A stretch of 64,000 nucleotides of DNA from Flavobacteriales bacterium (GTDB taxonomy: Bacteria; Bacteroidota; Bacteroidia; Flavobacteriales_D; Crocinitomicaceae), in NCBI GenBank assembly GCA_013373595.1, contig JABXHO010000040.1:1-64000 (forward strand), in the 5' to 3' direction. Position numbers and translations under genes: made by a program. The notes below the pieces were generated by a model. That model did not search any database and was not told where the DNA came from. It saw nothing but the letters and a program-made list of their open reading frames with translations. Shown here one piece after another: positions 11,068-18,216 of the stretch (the stretch's first letter is position 1; each line of letters opens with the position of its first letter).

Positions 11068-11564
11068 ACACGTTTTCCCAATTCGATTACTTCTAAATCA
11101 TGGATTCTGTCTCCCGTTATGGAAAAACGCATGATGGTTTTTACTTGATGGAATCCTTTGAAGCCGCAAGCGCCAGGATTCATCCACAGCATATTGAATC
11201 GGGGATCATTTTTTACCAAAAGAATATGCGAATGTCCACAAATGAACAACTTCGGTGCGCCATTAGTTTGTAGTTCCTCGAACGCAGGCTTGCTATATTT
11301 CCCAGGTTTTCCAGCGATATGCGTCATCAAAACTTCGACGTCTTCGCACATGAAGCGATTAAATTCGGGGAACTCCATGCGAACATCTGCCGCGTCAATA
11401 TTTCCATACACGCCGCGCACAGGTTTGAAATCACGCAATTGATCAATAACGGAAACATCTCCAACATCTCCAGCATGCCAAATTTCATCGACACCTTTAA
11501 AATGTTCATAGATTTTTGGGTCGATAAACCCGTGAGTATCCGACATCAGTCCAATCCGTTTCAT
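11064..11564 (-). CDS. YfcE/MJ0936-type metallophosphoesterase
   Basis: A 166-residue single-domain phosphodiesterase of the YfcE family. The metal ligands are visible in order: LMSDTHG (D-x-H), WHAGDVGD (GD), YGNIDA (GN-D), MTHIAG (H) and CGHSHI (GH-x-H). Its ATG overlaps the stop of the lycopene cyclase gene (ATGA at 11561-11564), so it is translationally coupled to the carotenoid operon. The physiological substrate in this family is generally unknown; a role in isoprenoid or pigment metabolism is suggested only by position. Confidence 0.88.
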   Translation of the reverse strand: MKRIGLMSDTHGFIDPKIYEHFKGVDEIWHAGDVGDVSVIDQLRDFKPVRGVYGNIDAADVRMEFPEFNRFMCEDVEVLMTHIAGKPGKYSKPAFEELQTNGAPKLFICGHSHILLVKNDPRFNMLWMNPGACGFKGFHQVKTIMRFSITGDRIHDLEVIELGKRV

Positions 11565-12241
11565 GAGGCACGTTTTTCTTCGAAAAATTCACTCAACATA
11601 AACACAGAGGCGACCAATGTGAAGCAATAGAGGATGTCCTCAAGTGGAATGGTCCAAATGCGTGGCGTTACTTTTTGTAATTCGCTGTACCAAACGATTG
11701 GTGTGTCTGTCATTCCTCCTGTAAGAATTCCATTCATCAAAATAAAAGGAATCAAACTAATCAGAAAAGAAATACCGACAAATGAATACCGAGGAACGCG
11801 CAGCCACCAAAACAAAACAATTCCAGAGGACACAACAATGCTGAAGGTATACCAACCTGTAGGTTCGAGTAAGGTGAGAATCATCGCGAAAATAGGAATC
11901 GCAAACTGTAAGATTCGATTGAACGACTTAAAATTGATTTTGCGGAAATAGTACTTACAGCACTCGTAGATAAAGGTACACGCAAATGGAACCACGATGA
12001 AAAACAGTACTTCTTCCAAAGGAAGATTACCAATATACCATCCAATGAGGTAATCGGGATTAAATCCCCAAAAACCATTTTCGGTGAAAATAAAGTCCCA
12101 AATCAAAAAGGGAACGGCAATTATCAATGTAGATAAAAACACGGATCGCCATTTTTGAACATAGCGAACACGACGATCGAAACTCAGAAGAATTGGAAAT
12201 ATAGGAGTTAACAGATCTAAAAGCAAGTAAAGTCCTTTCAT
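11561..12241 (-). CDS. Lycopene beta-cyclase, CrtYc-CrtYd fusion type
   Basis: Integral membrane cyclase that forms beta-ionone rings on lycopene. Two repeats of the lycopene-cyclase domain are visible: the first with LGWYIGN-type loop and NLPLEEVLFFIVVPFACTF (about residues 70-90), the second with IPLEDILYCF near the C-terminus (about 206-215). The PLEE/PLED acidic motifs match the heterodimeric CrtYc/CrtYd family fused in one chain, as in other Bacteroidota. About six membrane helices; 226 residues from the ATG at 12241. That ATG overlaps the crtZ stop (ATGA), and the longer frame to 12283 would intrude into crtZ. The fused-domain form is established for bacterial and archaeal relatives. 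Confidence 0.85.
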   Translation of the reverse strand: MKGLYLLLDLLTPIFPILLSFDRRVRYVQKWRSVFLSTLIIAVPFLIWDFIFTENGFWGFNPDYLIGWYIGNLPLEEVLFFIVVPFACTFIYECCKYYFRKINFKSFNRILQFAIPIFAMILTLLEPTGWYTFSIVVSSGIVLFWWLRVPRYSFVGISFLISLIPFILMNGILTGGMTDTPIVWYSELQKVTPRIWTIPLEDILYCFTLVASVFMLSEFFEEKRAS

Positions 12242-12675
12242 GATTGAAAGTATTTCCTTGGAACAATGAGCATTCCGAAACACTCACCGTCTTCCTTCTC
12301 TTGATTTTTGTGGTGAATCTTATGGGCCTTTCGAATGGCTCTGAAATAGGCATTGTTGGTTTTGTCGAACCATTTAAATCGTCGGTGAATCAGTACGTCG
12401 TGCACTAGGAAATAAACAATTCCATAGAGCGCAATTCCGAATCCAAATCCAATTGAAAAGTTGACTTCATAGATAAAACCAAGCATGATGCACAGCCAAG
12501 ATGGAATGGCGAAAATCAGGAAGAATAGATCATTCTTTTCGAAGAAACGCGGTGTTACTTTGTGATGATCTTCGTGAATTTTCCATAAAAATCCATGCAT
12601 GAGGTATTTGTGAGCCGACCAGGCGGCGAATTCCATCAATCCAAAAGCCAAAATAAGCGCAACAACAAACATCAT
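12238..12675 (-). CDS. crtZ: Beta-carotene hydroxylase CrtZ
   Basis: Diiron membrane hydroxylase that adds 3-OH groups to beta-ionone rings, giving zeaxanthin or hydroxylated monocyclic carotenoids. All four histidine clusters are present: HKYLMHG, HEDHHK, HDVLIHRR and HKIHHK. Length of 145 residues is typical. It overlaps both neighbours by 4 bp (cruF-like upstream, cyclase downstream), so it is an internal gene of the operon. Confidence 0.93.
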   Translation of the reverse strand: MMFVVALILAFGLMEFAAWSAHKYLMHGFLWKIHEDHHKVTPRFFEKNDLFFLIFAIPSWLCIMLGFIYEVNFSIGFGFGIALYGIVYFLVHDVLIHRRFKWFDKTNNAYFRAIRKAHKIHHKNQEKEDGECFGMLIVPRKYFQS

Positions 12676-13307
12676 AATGCTAAGTTAAGAATACCAAAGA
12701 AAATAATCCAGATAAAATAAAGCGATTGAGCCGGTTTGTTTTTCGATTTCCCCAAGGAGAAGTAGACAAATGAAAATAATGAAGAGAAACCGAACCAGCA
12801 AACGTAGTTCCAAATCGGGATGACGCCATTTTCCCAATCCCAAAAGTCGAGCTTCATCGCAACAGGTTCAATGAGCATATCCATGGCTGTACACAGCACA
12901 CCTGCGAGAATCGATTTCACAACAATATTGATTCGAAGGGAGTAGAGGAGAGAGCTACTCGCCAAAACGACACAAAACCAGTTCACGCCAATTACGAGCG
13001 GGATATCACCGAATTTCGGGCCGAGTGCTGCACCGTATCCATAATTTCCGAAGAGCAAACCTGTGTGAACACCGATGTACTCAACAGCGAATCCTCCGAG
13101 AAGAATCAAAATTAATGTTCCTAAAGTTCGAATGTAATGCGTTTCACTGATGAATAGAAGGAATCCAGCAAGCAAGAGATTGAGGTACGAAAGCTTAGCG
13201 CCTTCAGGGTATAGTAACATTATTCCAATCCCAATTACATGGAATAGAAGCAAGATTGCAATAATGATTCTAATACTTTTTGGGCTATGAATCAAAGAGA
13301 CGCGCAT
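12672..13307 (-). CDS. CruF-like carotenoid biosynthesis protein (DUF422)
   Basis: A 211-residue, seven-helix membrane protein with the DUF422/CruF signature: FAVEYIGVHTGLLFGNYGYG, then GDIPLVIGVNWF, DMLIEPVAMKLDFWDW and IPIWNYVCWFG. Characterised members (cyanobacterial CruF, haloarchaeal bisanhydrobacterioruberin hydratase) hydrate the psi-end C1,2 double bond, making 1'-hydroxy carotenoids. With one cyclase and CrtZ, this suggests a monocyclic 1'-hydroxylated product of the saproxanthin/myxol kind in addition to or instead of zeaxanthin; that is inference. It follows idi by 2 bp and overlaps crtZ by 4 bp. Confidence 0.8.
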   Translation of the reverse strand: MRVSLIHSPKSIRIIIAILLLFHVIGIGIMLLYPEGAKLSYLNLLLAGFLLFISETHYIRTLGTLILILLGGFAVEYIGVHTGLLFGNYGYGAALGPKFGDIPLVIGVNWFCVVLASSSLLYSLRINIVVKSILAGVLCTAMDMLIEPVAMKLDFWDWENGVIPIWNYVCWFGFSSLFSFVYFSLGKSKNKPAQSLYFIWIIFFGILNLAL

Positions 13308-13309
13308 AG

Positions 13310-13831
13310 TTATGAAATAGCTTGATGTAAGGTTTCCCGAACGCGGTCAAAGATGATTTTGAACCATTCTGTGTAGACTTCGGGCTGTTCTTTCATGTGG
13401 TCAGACAATTCGTCTAAATTCACATATTTCCAGTCTTCCACTTCATCTGGATTTAGGTTGGGCGCGTCATTGTAACGTCCGATAAGTACATGATCCAACT
13501 CGTGTTCGGTTAAACCTTGATCCAATTCTGCTTTGTAGATGAATGAGAAAACGGGCTCCACGGGAACGGTAAATCCCATTTCTTCCATTAGCCGTCGCTC
13601 TCCAGCTTCAGCAATCGATTCGTTTTTTCTTGGATGACTGCAACAGCTATTCGTCCACAAACCACCTGAATGATACTTCGAGGAGGCACGCTTTTGCAGC
13701 AGCAATTCGTTTTGATCATTGAAAATGAAAACAGAAAAGGCACGATGGAGCAGCCCTTTTTCATGCGCTTTCATTTTTTCCATTTCCCCAATAGGTTCGT
13801 CTTGTTCGTTGACAAGAATAACGTATTCCAT
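13310..13831 (-). CDS. idi: Isopentenyl-diphosphate delta-isomerase, type I
   Basis: Nudix-fold enzyme converting IPP to DMAPP, feeding prenyl chain synthesis. Landmarks: the active-site Cys region TNSCCSHPRKNES, the Nudix-like block EAGERRLMEEMGF, and the C-terminal ELDHVLIGRY with EVEDWKYV. The length of 173 residues is normal for the bacterial enzyme. It starts 1 bp after the crtB stop and is followed 2 bp later by the cruF-like gene, so isomerase supply is built into the carotenoid operon. No GGPP synthase gene is in the window. Confidence 0.95.
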   Translation of the reverse strand: MEYVILVNEQDEPIGEMEKMKAHEKGLLHRAFSVFIFNDQNELLLQKRASSKYHSGGLWTNSCCSHPRKNESIAEAGERRLMEEMGFTVPVEPVFSFIYKAELDQGLTEHELDHVLIGRYNDAPNLNPDEVEDWKYVNLDELSDHMKEQPEVYTEWFKIIFDRVRETLHQAIS

Positions 13832-13832
13832 A

Positions 13833-14669
13833 TTAAAGTAAATTCATGGTGTTTCGAACGTACGATTTAGCAAACAAAAGGACTTTTGTGTTGTTCGGAA
13901 CACGGATTCTGTTTTCGAGCAAGTCTTTGGCTGTTTTCCGCTTGATTTTACGGAGAAGCTTAGTGTAGTACACATAGCTCACGTAAACACCAAATCTCGA
14001 TGACTTCGGAAGTTGTTTGATCCCGATGTATGCGTCGTCGAATTCGATTTGTATTTCTTCTTCAATTCGCTTTTTATCTTCAAGAGAAAGGCCTTCCATG
14101 TCCACACCAGGGAAATACACTCTTCCCAATCCTTGAAAATCATCTTTCATGTCGCGCAAGAAGTTGATTTTTTGGAAAGCCGAGCCTAATTTCATTGCGT
14201 AAGGCTTAAGACGTTGGTATTCTTCCTCATTGCCGTAAACGAAAACCTTCAAGCACATCAATCCTACTACTTCTGCAGACCCGAGAATGTATTCCTCATA
14301 TGTTTCTTGCGTGTACTCAACGGGATTTAAATCCATGTGCATACTGTGCAAGAACTGATCAATCAATGCATGATCGATGTTGTATTTATTGACAACAATT
14401 TGAAATGAATTCAAAATGGGGTTCAGCGAAATTTTACGCTCAATTGCAGTGTACGTAGCGTCGATGAATTCGTTCAATAATTGTTCCTTATCCTGTTCAT
14501 GAAAGGTATCAACGATTTCGTCGGCGAAGCGTACGAACCCGTAGATTCCATGAATGTCGTTTCGGATTTTTTTGTCCAAAAATCGAACTCCAGCGTAAAA
14601 AGAAGTACTGTACGACTTTGTTACGTGCTTGGAAGCTTTAAATGAATAGGTATCGAAGAGTTCTCTCAT
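13833..14669 (-). CDS. crtB: Phytoene synthase
   Basis: Condenses two GGPP to phytoene. Both aspartate-rich motifs of squalene/phytoene synthases are present: RFADEIVDTF (about residue 47) and NFLRDMKDDFQGLGRVYFP (about residues 168-186). The N-terminal SYSTSFYAG is also typical. Length is 278 residues. The start overlaps the crtI stop by 4 bp (ATGA), the usual crtI-crtB coupling. Confidence 0.95.
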   Translation of the reverse strand: MRELFDTYSFKASKHVTKSYSTSFYAGVRFLDKKIRNDIHGIYGFVRFADEIVDTFHEQDKEQLLNEFIDATYTAIERKISLNPILNSFQIVVNKYNIDHALIDQFLHSMHMDLNPVEYTQETYEEYILGSAEVVGLMCLKVFVYGNEEEYQRLKPYAMKLGSAFQKINFLRDMKDDFQGLGRVYFPGVDMEGLSLEDKKRIEEEIQIEFDDAYIGIKQLPKSSRFGVYVSYVYYTKLLRKIKRKTAKDLLENRIRVPNNTKVLLFAKSYVRNTMNLL

Positions 14670-16129
14670 GTGGTTTGTATTAGTCGTTTAGCTGCAATCT
14701 TTCCGGAGATCAAAGCAGGCGGAATTCCTGGACCAGGAACTGTTAGTTGCCCACAGTAAAATACGTTTTTTAATTTAGATTGCATTTTTGGTTTAAGATT
14801 AGCTGTTTGGGCTAGCGTATTTGCTAATCCATAGGCATTTCCTTTAAATGAGTTGTATTCCGATTTGAAGTCTGAAATACAGAAAGACCGTTTGTAGGTA
14901 ATGTGATCGCGGATAGAAGTTCCCGATCTTGCTTCCATTCGATCCATGATCATGTTGAAGTAAATTTCTCGTGTTTCTTCTGAATCCTCTAAATCCGTAG
15001 CGAGTGGCATTAGGATAAATATATTTTCGTGCCCTTCTGGAGCTACGTCTTTATCTGTTTTCGATGGAACACAGGCATAAAAAAGAGGTTTCGATGGCCA
15101 CTTTGGATTGTTATAGATTTCTTTTCCATGATTGTTCAAATCTTCATCAAAGAACAAGTTGTGATGTTCCATATTGGGAACTTCTTCACCCACTCCTAAA
15201 TAGTATATCAATGAACTAGGAGCGAGCTTGCGTTTGTCCCAATACGATTCAGAGTAACGACGGTATTCCTTCGGAATAAGCGTTTGCTCAACATGGTGAT
15301 AATCTGCTCCGCCTACTACCGCATCAAACTCGTGAATATTGTCTCCCACGCGGATTCCATGAGCTAAGCCATCTTTCACTACGATTTCGTCTACGTTTGC
15401 ATTATAGTGGAAAGTAACTCCTTCTTTCACTGCTATTTTCTCAAGAGCAGCGGCTAAAGCATTCATTCCACCTTCTGGATACCACGTTCCCAGTTCGAGA
15501 TCGGCGTAGTTCATCAATGTATACAAGGAGGGGATGCTTCCCGGCATATCTCCAAGAAATAAGACAGGAAAGTTCAAAATGCTTCGTGCTTTCTCCGAAG
15601 TGAAGCGTTTCGCAACATCTTTTTCTACCGACTTAAACACATCCAGTTTGAGTGCGTTTTTGAGTACACTAAATTTTAGGATTTCACCGATTTTCAATCC
15701 AGGGTTCTCGAGAAAAGACTCGGTTGCGATGTCGTATTTTGTCTTCGCATCAGCAAGAAACCTTTCTAGTTTTTGACCGCCATTCGACTCAAATGAATCA
15801 AACATGGAGAACAATGCTTCCTTGTTGGCTGGAATTTTTGTGGTAGTCTGGTCCTTCCACAGGACTTGATAAGAGGGATCTAAGCGTTGAAGCTGGAAGT
15901 AATCACTTCTTTTTTCTCCGAGATCCTCAAACAAGCTGTCAACCAGTTCAGGCATCCAATACCAAGATGGCCCCATATCAAAGACATAGCCATCGACTTC
16001 AAAGTATTGAGAGCGCCCACCCGCCATTTCGTTCTTTTCGAATACATCAACAGTGTATCCATGTTTTGCTAAGAAACATGCGGAGTATAGACTCGAGAGT
16101 CCGGCACCAATTATTCCAACTTTCTTCAT
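14666..16129 (-). CDS. crtI: Phytoene desaturase CrtI
   Basis: FAD-dependent desaturase taking phytoene to lycopene. N-terminal Rossmann motif VGIIGAGLSSLYSACFLA with the acidic end VDVFEKNEMAGGRS, and the C-terminal CrtI signature GNAYGLANTLAQTANLKPK followed by VFYCGQLTVPGPGIPPALIS. Length of 487 residues is normal. It is the first gene of the operon; the 79-bp upstream region holds a -7 element and two inverted repeats also found before the regulator gene. Confidence 0.96.
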   Translation of the reverse strand: MKKVGIIGAGLSSLYSACFLAKHGYTVDVFEKNEMAGGRSQYFEVDGYVFDMGPSWYWMPELVDSLFEDLGEKRSDYFQLQRLDPSYQVLWKDQTTTKIPANKEALFSMFDSFESNGGQKLERFLADAKTKYDIATESFLENPGLKIGEILKFSVLKNALKLDVFKSVEKDVAKRFTSEKARSILNFPVLFLGDMPGSIPSLYTLMNYADLELGTWYPEGGMNALAAALEKIAVKEGVTFHYNANVDEIVVKDGLAHGIRVGDNIHEFDAVVGGADYHHVEQTLIPKEYRRYSESYWDKRKLAPSSLIYYLGVGEEVPNMEHHNLFFDEDLNNHGKEIYNNPKWPSKPLFYACVPSKTDKDVAPEGHENIFILMPLATDLEDSEETREIYFNMIMDRMEARSGTSIRDHITYKRSFCISDFKSEYNSFKGNAYGLANTLAQTANLKPKMQSKLKNVFYCGQLTVPGPGIPPALISGKIAAKRLIQTT

Positions 16130-16149
16130 TGTTTAAATCTGTGTAAACA
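16130..16149. promoter_or_regulatory. Proximal operator-like inverted repeat at the crtI promoter
   Basis: TGTTTA (16130-16135) and TAAACA (16144-16149) form a perfect 6-bp inverted repeat with an 8-bp spacer. On the minus strand the -7 element TATATTTG (16148-16155) runs straight into it, and it ends at the base before the crtI ATG, so a bound protein would block initiation. The same half-sites occur upstream of the MerR gene. Confidence 0.6.
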
Positions 16150-16155
16150 AATATA
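16148..16155 (-). promoter_or_regulatory. -7 element TATATTTG of the crt operon promoter
   Basis: Minus-strand TATATTTG matches TAnnTTTG exactly and lies 19 bp upstream of the crtI ATG. No TTG is seen at the expected -33 distance. Confidence 0.55.
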
Positions 16156-16168
16156 GGATAAAAATCTA

Positions 16169-16205
16169 TTTTGTTTAATTAAAGTTAAAAAAAACTAAAC
16201 AAAAA
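16169..16205. promoter_or_regulatory. Distal operator-like inverted repeat upstream of crtI
   Basis: TTTTGTTTA (16169-16177) and TAAACAAAA (16196-16204) are 9-bp inverted arms; the TGTTTA/TAAACA cores are 18 bp apart, the same core spacing as in the repeat upstream of the regulator gene. It lies directly behind the regulator's stop codon and upstream of the crtI -7 element. Confidence 0.5.
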
Positions 16206-16208
16206 TAA

Positions 16209-17078
16209 TTAAGCTTGGATCAATTCCTTTTCAGAAGAGATGATTTTGATGGCAGAAGGGATGCGATCGGCCACTTCTTGTACAAATGATCCTGAAAGAC
16301 GAATTTCAGAGTCACGGGAGCTTTTCACGAATCGCTTAAAGAACTCATCCACATCTTTTTCGTTGATTTTGCTGATTAAGTTCGTAACAACAATATCTGG
16401 CTTCGTTTGCGCTACTGATTTCTCTAAATCATCCAACGGTACATTTTTACCAAGGTAAATGCATTTGTAGCCCGCATCTTTTAACAGGTATTGGTAATAG
16501 AGAAGACTCAATTCATGATCTTCGTGTTGAGGAAGAAAAAGTAAGGCAGAGCGATCCAATTTCTTTTCAGGTTTGAGATCATTTGTTTTTAGAATGAAGA
16601 AATCACGTAAAATATTCGAGAAGTGATGCTCATGTGCTACAGAAATGGAGTTTGTCATCCATAATTCTCCCATTTTTTGTAATAATGGAACAATCACAGT
16701 ACTATACATTTCACGCAGACCGTATTTCTTATCATTACTCCAAAGCTGTTTTCGGATTTCATCCGCATCCATTGACGTAATCGAGATCAATAAAGCATCA
16801 ATGTCTTCATTTCCTGAAACCGATTTGTCCACGATGATTTCTTTGGCCTTCTCCGTAATTTCCTCCTCCGTTAATTTGGCAATTTTGGAAATTTTCAATC
16901 CATTAAGGTAAAGAAGATTGATATTCAGAATCTTCTTTAAATCTTTGTGGGAGTAATATCGGATATTACTTTCTGTTCGTTTGGGAGATAACAAATTGTA
17001 ACGTTGTTCCCAGATACGAATAGTATGAGCCTTAATCTCAGTGTAATTTTCTAAATCTTTTATTGAGTAACGAACCAT
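16209..17078 (-). CDS. CarH/LitR-like MerR regulator with cobalamin-binding light-sensor domain
   Basis: Probable light-responsive repressor of the carotenoid operon. An N-terminal MerR winged helix (residues 1-70; KAHTIRIWEQRYNLLSPKRT) is followed by a helical cap (about 90-165) and a B12-binding Rossmann domain (about 175-285). The cap has W140 and E150-H151, the Wx9EH signature of the adenosylcobalamin photoreceptor CarH. The lower-ligand histidine is probably H188 in HEDHELS; the usual following Gly is Ser here. In CarH, the dark AdoCbl-bound tetramer represses carotenoid genes and light releases it (established for Thermus and Myxococcus). The gene ends 79 bp before crtI on the same strand and has a matching inverted repeat at its own promoter, suggesting autoregulation. 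Confidence 0.88.
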   Translation of the reverse strand: MVRYSIKDLENYTEIKAHTIRIWEQRYNLLSPKRTESNIRYYSHKDLKKILNINLLYLNGLKISKIAKLTEEEITEKAKEIIVDKSVSGNEDIDALLISITSMDADEIRKQLWSNDKKYGLREMYSTVIVPLLQKMGELWMTNSISVAHEHHFSNILRDFFILKTNDLKPEKKLDRSALLFLPQHEDHELSLLYYQYLLKDAGYKCIYLGKNVPLDDLEKSVAQTKPDIVVTNLISKINEKDVDEFFKRFVKSSRDSEIRLSGSFVQEVADRIPSAIKIISSEKELIQA

Positions 17079-17081
17079 CTG

Positions 17082-17119
17082 TTTGTTTAATGTCTAACAT
17101 TTGTGATTAAACAAAATTA
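17082..17119. promoter_or_regulatory. Promoter and 10-bp inverted-repeat operator of the MerR gene
   Basis: TTTGTTTAAT (17082-17091) and ATTAAACAAA (17106-17115) are perfect 10-bp inverted arms 14 bp apart; the inner TGTTTA/TAAACA cores are 18 bp apart. The minus-strand -7 element TAATTTTG is at 17112-17119 and overlaps the upstream arm. The layout, -7 element running into a TTTGTTTA half-site, is the same as at crtI. Confidence 0.65.
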
Positions 17120-17175: not shown

Positions 17176-18216
17176 ATGAACGGTCGAAACATAGACGATT
17201 GGATTCGAAAGAAACGCGAGCGGAGGCAAAATTCAACACCAGATGCGCTCTTTTCAGGAATTATTTCGGGAGATAAAACGGCGTTAAGCTCGGGCATCAC
17301 CTTGATTGAGAGTCAACTATCTGAAGATAGAGTCTTGGCGAACGAACTCCTTCAAAAATGCTTACCTAAAAGTGGACAATCCATTCGGATTGGAATAACG
17401 GGCGTTCCCGGAGTAGGTAAGAGCACATTCATTGAACATTTTGGCGGTTTGTTTACCAATGAGGGAGATAAAGTAGCTGTTTTGGCGGTTGATCCATCAA
17501 GTGCAGTGTCGCGCGGGAGTATTTTGGGAGATAAAACACGGATGAATGAGTTGACGAAAAATCCGGATGTATTTATTCGACCTTCTCCAGCAGGTGAAAC
17601 GCTTGGAGGTGTGGCACGGAAAACACGCGAGAGCATCATTTTGTGTGAAGCTGCGGGGTACAACGTGATCCTCGTTGAAACGGTTGGTGTGGGACAGTCG
17701 GAAGTGGTGGTGAAATCCATGGTTGATTTCTTCCTTCTACTAATGCTGTCTGGAGCTGGAGATGAACTTCAAGGGATTAAGAAAGGAATCATGGAAATGG
17801 CAGATGCGCTCATCATTACAAAAGCAGATGGCGATAATGTCAAAAAAGCTGCGATGGCCGCGCGTGAGTACAAAAATGCCATACACTTATTTCCTCCTAA
17901 TTCCAACGAGTGGATTCCAAAAGTGTTTACATGTAGCTCACTGGATGGAACCAATATGGATGAAGCACTAAAAACCATTCGTAGTTTCGAGAATCATGTG
18001 AAAATCAATGGTTCGTTTGAAAGAAATAGAAGAGAACAGGATAAAAAATGGCTTTCGGAGACTTTGAAAGAATTGATTCTGAACGGATTCTTTTCCAATC
18101 GTGAACTCATGAAGAGATTAAAACAAAATGAAGAGCGCGTGGCAAAAGGAGAACTCACTTCTTTTCAGGCCGCAGAAGAATTATTTGAAGCGTACCAACA
18201 TGGAAGAGACATTTAA
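17176..18216 (+). CDS. meaB: MeaB/ArgK family GTPase, methylmalonyl-CoA mutase chaperone
   Basis: G3E-type GTPase that protects and reloads adenosylcobalamin-dependent methylmalonyl-CoA mutase. Walker A at residues 73-84 (GITGVPGVGKST), the MeaB block VLAVDPSSAVSRGSILGDKT, switch motif ETVGVGQSE, and the base-recognition motif ITKADGDN. Length of 346 residues is normal. It is divergent from the B12-binding MerR gene across 97 bp; the mutase genes themselves are not in this window. The following S4-domain gene overlaps its 3' end by 17 bp. Confidence 0.94.
   Translation: MNGRNIDDWIRKKRERRQNSTPDALFSGIISGDKTALSSGITLIESQLSEDRVLANELLQKCLPKSGQSIRIGITGVPGVGKSTFIEHFGGLFTNEGDKVAVLAVDPSSAVSRGSILGDKTRMNELTKNPDVFIRPSPAGETLGGVARKTRESIILCEAAGYNVILVETVGVGQSEVVVKSMVDFFLLLMLSGAGDELQGIKKGIMEMADALIITKADGDNVKKAAMAAREYKNAIHLFPPNSNEWIPKVFTCSSLDGTNMDEALKTIRSFENHVKINGSFERNRREQDKKWLSETLKELILNGFFSNRELMKRLKQNEERVAKGELTSFQAAEELFEAYQHGRDI

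Follow-up and report, generated by a model that had tools for sequence, protein, structure and literature searches.

A 30-bp inverted repeat as probable operator of a CarH/LitR-type MerR regulator in Crocinitomicaceae and related Bacteroidota

The carotenoid genes of a Crocinitomicaceae bacterium are preceded by copies of the inverted repeat TGTTTA/TAAACA that recur upstream of an adjacent MerR-family gene, which raises the question of whether one regulator acts at both promoters and, if so, which of the repeats it reads and in answer to which signal. In the window (the whole stretch of 64,000 nucleotides that was analysed), the three exact repeats named in the original prediction are all present at the positions it gave: one with an 8-bp spacer between the halves (N8, 16130-16149) and two with an 18-bp spacer (N18, 16172-16201 and 17084-17113). 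Against these three, simulating the window with a first-order Markov model (60 runs) gives an expectation of 0.017 N8 and N18 repeats per 64 kb, and among 20,000 simulated 176-bp stretches with the composition of the two intergenic regions, nine contained one such repeat and none contained two. Our best explanation, to which we give a probability of roughly 0.77, is that the adjacent MerR protein uses the N18 repeats as its operators, that this protein is of the CarH/LitR type, and that it represses light-linked genes until it is released by light.

Genes and promoters at the crtI-merR locus

The regulatory gene (16209..17078, minus strand) encodes a MerR-family protein of 289 aa with a CarH-type cobalamin-binding domain, as assigned by Pfam, structure search and model. 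On the same strand, crtI (phytoene desaturase; 14666..16129, NCBIfam CrtID above cut-off) is the first gene of a crt run, all on the minus strand, that also holds genes for a crtB-type squalene/phytoene synthase (13833..14669, Pfam family search), the isopentenyl-diphosphate isomerase idi (13310..13831, NCBIfam family search), a CruF-like carotenoid biosynthesis protein (12672..13307; over the cut-off in Pfam, under it for NCBIfam CruF) and a lycopene cyclase domain protein (11561..12283, Pfam and NCBIfam family searches). Between the last two is an ORF of 145 aa (12238..12675) with no family match in Pfam or NCBIfam, which from reading alone we take to be beta-carotene hydroxylase-like. Divergent from merR, and 63 bp from its operator, lies meaB (17176..18216, plus strand), encoding the GTPase chaperone of an AdoCbl-dependent mutase. 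Genes for meaB or IcmF-type mutases, which form one BLAST cluster and were checked with Pfam in the window and in locus L118, adjoin merR in the window and in L094, L097, L104 and L124, so that the presumed AdoCbl sensor is often next to AdoCbl enzymes; they also stand beside PTPS operators in L118.

It should be noted that the promoter elements were read from consensus alone and that the -33 region is a presumed one. The merR operator (17084-17113) extends from the -7 element TAATTTTG (17112..17119, minus strand), which runs into TGTTTA and has its TG in common with the outer half-site, and stops 5 bp short of the merR start codon. At crtI, the -7 element TATATTTG (16148..16155, minus strand) also runs into TGTTTA. 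The fusion of a -7 element to a half-site that had been claimed for both promoters is therefore real, but at crtI the abutting half-site is part of the N8 repeat, which lies between the -7 element and the start codon, whereas the crtI N18 operator (16172-16201) is found 16 bp further upstream from that element, where the -33 region is presumed to be. In a classical MerR activator the palindrome would sit between -35 and -10. Here the merR operator runs downstream from -7 and that of crtI lies upstream of -7, a placement that, with promoters read from consensus, fits such an activator poorly; a repressor covering -7/+1 at merR and the presumed -33 region at crtI fits better.

In the mechanism that we propose, two half-sites in facing orientation, set apart by a spacer of constant length (18 bp, rarely 19 bp), form one 30-bp inverted repeat that the regulator would bind directly, the operator probably being taken by the two DNA-binding domains of a single dimer. 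At merR the protein would then sit on the -7/+1 region and repress its own gene, and at crtI on the -33 region; in the dark, RNA polymerase would thus be denied access. By analogy with CarH, light would probably act on bound adenosylcobalamin and release the protein, and release would switch on carotenoid, rhodopsin, photolyase, pterin/folate, SOUL, fasciclin and ECF-sigma genes. An inverted repeat of fixed spacer needs two DNA-binding domains that face each other, unlike the head-to-tail arrangement of TtCarH, and this poses a structural question: if the CarH-fold tetramer reads direct repeats, how would it read an inverted repeat with a rigid spacer? A fuller picture, in which this class of Bacteroidota has a light regulon of pigment, rhodopsin, photolyase and sigma-factor genes run by a branch of CarH with a rearranged dimer that reads two 15-bp halves, cooperation at helical-turn distances and, for want of the His of TtCarH, different light chemistry, is more tentative, and we would put its chances somewhat short of even. 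The proposed system would make the operator of CarH-like regulators recognisable, and their regulon predictable, in a large bacterial group, with the direct prediction that one 30-bp motif marks light-linked genes.

The regulator and its relation to known CarH, CarA and LitR proteins

In Pfam, MerR_1 (4.3e-15) and B12-binding_2 score over their cut-offs and B12-binding scores 26.8 bits, under its cut-off of 32.1, while the NCBIfam CarH equivalog model matches at 2e-22 and 79.8 bits, below its cut-off of 400; the nearest solved relatives by sequence are TtCarH/LitR (3whp/5c8d). The AlphaFold model of the protein has a mean pLDDT of 80 and a pTM of 0.72, with the first 40 residues near 50, and its residues 89-289 match the cobalamin domain of TtCarH (5c8a/5c8e) with a Z of about 18 and 2.2 A over 190-191 residues. 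The model thus predicts an intact, CarH-like cobalamin domain made of a four-helix bundle and a Rossmann fold.

Conservation was followed across 33 MerR loci gathered by genome search (a contig-level locus search gave 3). These loci encode 30 distinct proteins, since one set of three genes appears both as L047-L049 and as L050-L052, and the 33/33 counts, like the 46 N18 repeats given below, include the duplicates. The nearest named relatives of the locus are genome bins of Crocinitomicaceae, Flavobacteriales and Fluviicola. W23 and R26 of the WEQRY segment are invariant, the lower-ligand His is kept in 33/33, and the Wx9EH motif is intact in the window protein and nearly so across the loci (W 33/33, E 33/33, H 32/33). 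Within the D/ExHxxG/P motif, E and H are present in 33/33, and the last position is G or P in 7/33 and Ser in 24/33, among them the window protein; in the rest of the B12 motif, the S of SxT/V is found in 15/33, the second G of GG in 32/33 and the first in 13/33. The residue that follows the Wx9EH Trp is Gln in 30/33 loci and Met in the window protein, unlike TtCarH, in which a His at this position (His132, as counted on the alignment) caps the photolysed B12. Likewise, the Arg176-Asp201 salt bridge of the TtCarH dimer is not kept, a loss that would agree with an altered dimer without demonstrating one. The Ser in place of Gly/Pro and the lack of His after the Trp suggest that the photochemistry may differ from that of TtCarH.

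These same departures (the degenerate B12 motif, the missing His and the lost salt bridge) would also suit a CarA-like protein that owns the N18 operator and works independently of B12 and light, perhaps with a partner protein or through another signal, and there is precedent in CarA of Myxococcus xanthus, which acts without B12, and in class II LitR, which works without part of the B12 domain (PMC9304148, PMC9758184). However, CarA is marked by loss of the Wx9EH Trp and its flanks (PMC9304148), whereas here the motif is nearly intact with its Trp in all 33 loci, the cobalamin-domain fold is predicted to be intact, and meaB/IcmF-type genes adjoin merR in the window and in four relatives. A CarA-like mode of action is thus a serious alternative that we nevertheless consider unlikely.

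On the best reading of the sequences, the regulator is a CarH/LitR-type repressor whose operator is arranged in a new way. Like CarH (Thermus thermophilus, Bacillus megaterium and Myxococcales; class I LitR), it combines a MerR DNA-binding domain with a CarH-type cobalamin domain that retains Wx9EH and the lower-ligand His; the gene lies beside crt genes, the operator lies over promoter elements, and the TAAACA half-site conforms to the CarH core TnnACA (PMC9304148). Unlike the single inverted repeat with an 18-bp spacer found here, the CarH operators described consist of 11-bp direct repeats of the form nnnnTnnACAn, three or four in tandem, with shorter variants in myxobacteria (PMC9304148, PMC8156234). 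For CarA, inverted repeats were once proposed and direct repeats are now suggested, with two dimers binding cooperatively (PMC9304148), a behaviour that may be compared with the helically phased N18 pairs described below; the repeat seen here is strictly inverted. Class II LitR (PplR1 and PmlR2 of Pseudomonas) also has an operator of two separated hexamers, T(G/A)TACA-N12-TGTA(C/T)A, but retains just the 4-helix part of the B12 domain, whereas here TGTTTA-N18-TAAACA goes together with both parts. Its described targets are photolyase, folE, cryptochrome-like and other light-inducible genes (PMC9758184), so the regulon proposed here is of a known kind. Among the titles and abstracts listed from the open-access literature, no report of this operator or of a Bacteroidota LitR regulon was found, and to that extent the architecture appears new; a Chryseobacterium with light-induced pigment is described as having no car or lit genes found in that strain (PMC7064467).

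Form and spacing of the operator

The half-site profile of 160 unique N18 sites, a set that includes orthologous promoters and the N18 sites of the window, reads TTT-TGTTTAAY-N-WWW. Position 7 is A (0.93), position 8 is C (0.49) or T (0.37), G or C makes up 4-5% at positions 10-11 and 9% at position 12, and the centre is free. A minor N19 form was found at 9 unique sites (L085, L092, L093, L054, L059, L060, L042, L045 and L069). Fusion to the -7 element is a recurrent trait, occurring at 54 of the 160 sites, with one other register seen once; counted over half-sites preceded by TT, TA stands at the -7 register in 54/205, the other offsets averaging 0.098. Both N18 repeats of the window match the conserved operator and the N8 repeat does not. 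The half-sites of the crtI N18 operator fall at the 50th and 33rd percentiles of the profile, and its counterpart is an N18 repeat at the same place in L048, L049 and L053 and an N19 repeat in L054 and L059.

Two other architectures were considered and rejected. A third, central half-site in the spacer is contradicted by positions 13-15, which carry almost no information. CarH-type 11-bp direct repeats hidden inside the loci or the operator fared no better: the 33 MerR loci contained no TnnACA triples, and 4 pairs against 9.5 in shuffles, and the TnnACA matches at offset -21 (54/320) are the left half-site re-read when positions 8-9 are CA.

Tandem N18 operators were seen in L001, L013, L081, L116, L118, L124, L135, L136 and others. 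Across 38 pairs of neighbouring operators no more than 70 bp apart, in which one partner was allowed one mismatch (four pairs at 87-129 bp fell outside the phase test), the centres are 30.5-35, 42-45, 49.5-55 or 63-65 bp apart, a period near 10.3-10.5 that corresponds to about 3, 4, 5 or 6 helical turns. As orthologous pairs are included, this phasing is suggestive of neighbouring operators set at whole turns and cooperating along one face.

The original prediction had gone further, suggesting that the same regulator uses both the 8-bp and the 18-bp spacing and contacts the half-sites on one DNA face, as a tetramer might. The N8 repeat is indeed exact and placed between the crtI -7 element and the start codon; measured to the halves of the same orientation in the N18 operator, its TGTTTA is 42 bp away and its TAAACA 52 bp, distances close to whole turns, and the tandem N18 pairs suggest cooperation on one face. 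The spacing spectra point the other way. Among the 54 exact repeats with spacers of 0-40 in the 33 MerR loci, 46 are N18, 4 are N19, and N7, N8, N11 and N26 occur once each, the single N8 being that of the window itself; in 149 genomes, N8 repeats number 87 against 163 in the reversed control. The N8 halves of the window score 4.7 and 3.4 bits, compared with a median of 14.1 for N18, and both are in the bottom 1% of N18 half-sites. Furthermore, no N8-like repeat was found in the crtI promoters of L048, L049, L053, L054, L059 and L060 (that of the closest homologue, L047, lies outside the stretch compared), all six of which have TATATTTG at the same place. In the first five, an N18 or N19 operator lies 15-17 bp before TATATTTG with no N8 after it, and in L060 the operator is degenerate and the N8 absent too. 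On the spacing spectra, the half-site scores and the comparison of crtI promoters, the N8 repeat was rejected as an operator, and with it the case for two spacings, which makes such a tetramer very unlikely. What survives is the notion of same-face contact, to which the whole-turn distances of neighbouring N18 operators lend some support. The N8 repeat is probably not an operator but at most an accessory pair of weak half-sites, and may be a lineage-specific one.

A perfect 20-bp N8 palindrome, TGTTTAGAAATTTCTAAACA, occurs identically at G034:C6:73796, G056:C29:11774 and G084:C11:87793 among the matches listed; these three genomes belong to one other genus.

Distribution of the motif and its candidate target genes

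In the genome from which the window comes, the repeat at any spacer is not enriched (14 against 13 in the control for spacers 8-18; 29 against 35 in the reversed control for 6-base halves and spacers 0-30), but the N18 class stands out with 10 of the 29, so the signal in this genome lies in spacer 18 alone. Eight genomes of the same genus, searched with 7-base halves and spacers 0-30, gave 89 repeats against 18 in the reversed control, and 70 with N16 (equivalent to N18), the 70 being taken from the 149-genome survey and the 89 from the separate spacer search. The survey of the 149 genomes counted 323 copies of the exact 30-bp motif TGTTTAA-N16-TTAAACA, spread over 107 genomes, and 11 of the reversed pattern; such survey totals come from per-genome counts, and the individual motif and MerR matches inspected are among the matches listed. 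In a phylum sample of 247 genomes, the motif was found in 39 of the 58 that share the class but not the order (115 sites, against 9 in the reversed control) and in 6 of the 186 from other classes (6 sites, against 8). Being commoner within the class and at control level beyond it, the N18 motif appears to be a trait of this class of Bacteroidota. One-mismatch sites are as a class mostly background, with 27 N18 sites at ≤1 mismatch in the genome of origin (10 of them exact) against 50 in the reversed control.

The motif also tracks the MerR gene. A strong MerR homologue (best E ≤1.3e-24) is present in 119/149 genomes, a weak one only (5e-8 to 1e-3) in 7, and none in 23, a group to which G094, G100 and G134 were assigned because they are absent from the match lists. 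The N18 motif is found in 102/119, 2/7 and 3/23 of these groups, respectively (strong versus none, Fisher p 1.6e-11, with relatedness of the genomes uncorrected). The exact motif is missing from 17 of the 119, and exceptions of the opposite kind are G033, with 3 sites and no MerR match, and G002 (83% complete), with 8 sites and a weak match only. The genome of origin has one merR copy. At merR's own promoter, an exact N18 or N19 operator is found in 20/30 distinct homologues (22/30 at ≤1 mismatch), and 17 of those 20 run on from a TAnnTT(TG) -7 element; no exact operator was found there in 10/30, one of which has only 31 bp of sequence at that position. The claim that one regulator serves both promoters is supported by this association across genomes and by the recurrence of N18 sites before merR and crtI.

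Because these tests covered co-occurrence and position only, the N18 repeats could also be bound by another regulator that merely co-occurs with the MerR gene, and the TetR-type and ECF sigma genes beside some sites, together with the 3 sites of G033, would agree with this. Against it stand the site at merR's own promoter in two thirds of the homologues, the fit of the half-site to the CarH core, and same-genus genomes such as G007, G013, G019, G024 and G028 that have neither a MerR match nor a site, whereas many neighbours with MerR have up to 11. We judge such a second regulator to be highly improbable. Chance repeats in AT-rich intergenic DNA, which would fit the N8 repeat and most one-mismatch sites, are scarcely credible for the exact N18 motif in view of the 323 to 11 excess and the three repeats of the window.

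To the preferred reading, in which the MerR protein binds the N18 repeats, the neighbouring genes add a candidate regulon. Among 93 unique sites of the genome of origin and 13 relatives, chosen from listings rather than at random and taken in part for 9 of the 13, 87 are no more than 300 bp away from a start codon (median distance of the 93, 41 bp) and 5 lie inside an ORF. Site-adjacent proteins were clustered by BLAST, counted as distinct proteins and named by their representatives: PTPS 9 (with folE behind PTPS in the genome of origin), fasciclin 7, crtI 6, meaB/IcmF-type 6, TetR-type 6, merR 5, SDR 5, TonB-type 4, SOUL 4, rhodopsin 3, ECF sigma 3 and photolyase 2, the last as single proteins. 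By reading, we take a further four to be SRPBCC-like (the representative having no Pfam match), two glutathione-peroxidase-like and one crtB-like; many other clusters are single cases with no known link. The N18 motif thus recurs before merR, crtI, photolyase, PTPS/folE and rhodopsin genes, in keeping with the expectation that a genome scan would find it at carotenoid and light-responsive genes, and from this distribution the regulator seems, in many related bacteria, to control light-linked genes, among them those for carotenoids, rhodopsin and DNA repair.

In the genome of origin, each of the two strong photolyase-family genes has a one-mismatch N18 site upstream, 75 bp before the longest-ORF start on contig C92 and 282 bp before the ATG on C91; as one-mismatch sites are mostly background, these two are supporting evidence rather than proof. 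A third, weak photolyase match (C92:445-795) has no N18 site in its locus. Elsewhere in this genome, N18 sites are found 21 bp ahead of a TonB-receptor gene and about 375 bp ahead of a CIA30 gene; those at C44, C99 and C174 have no clear light gene alongside. The operator at G000:C174:3146-3175 (L014) lies 14 bp before a 140-aa ORF without a Pfam match, and the ORF just upstream of it is, by reading, presumably rpoC-like. A TetR-type gene (L132:2385-3044; TetR_C_23 in the representative) is a recurrent neighbour, with homologues in L089, L100, L106, L113 and L123; the operator lies 2-39 bp from its start, which suggests a second layer of control.
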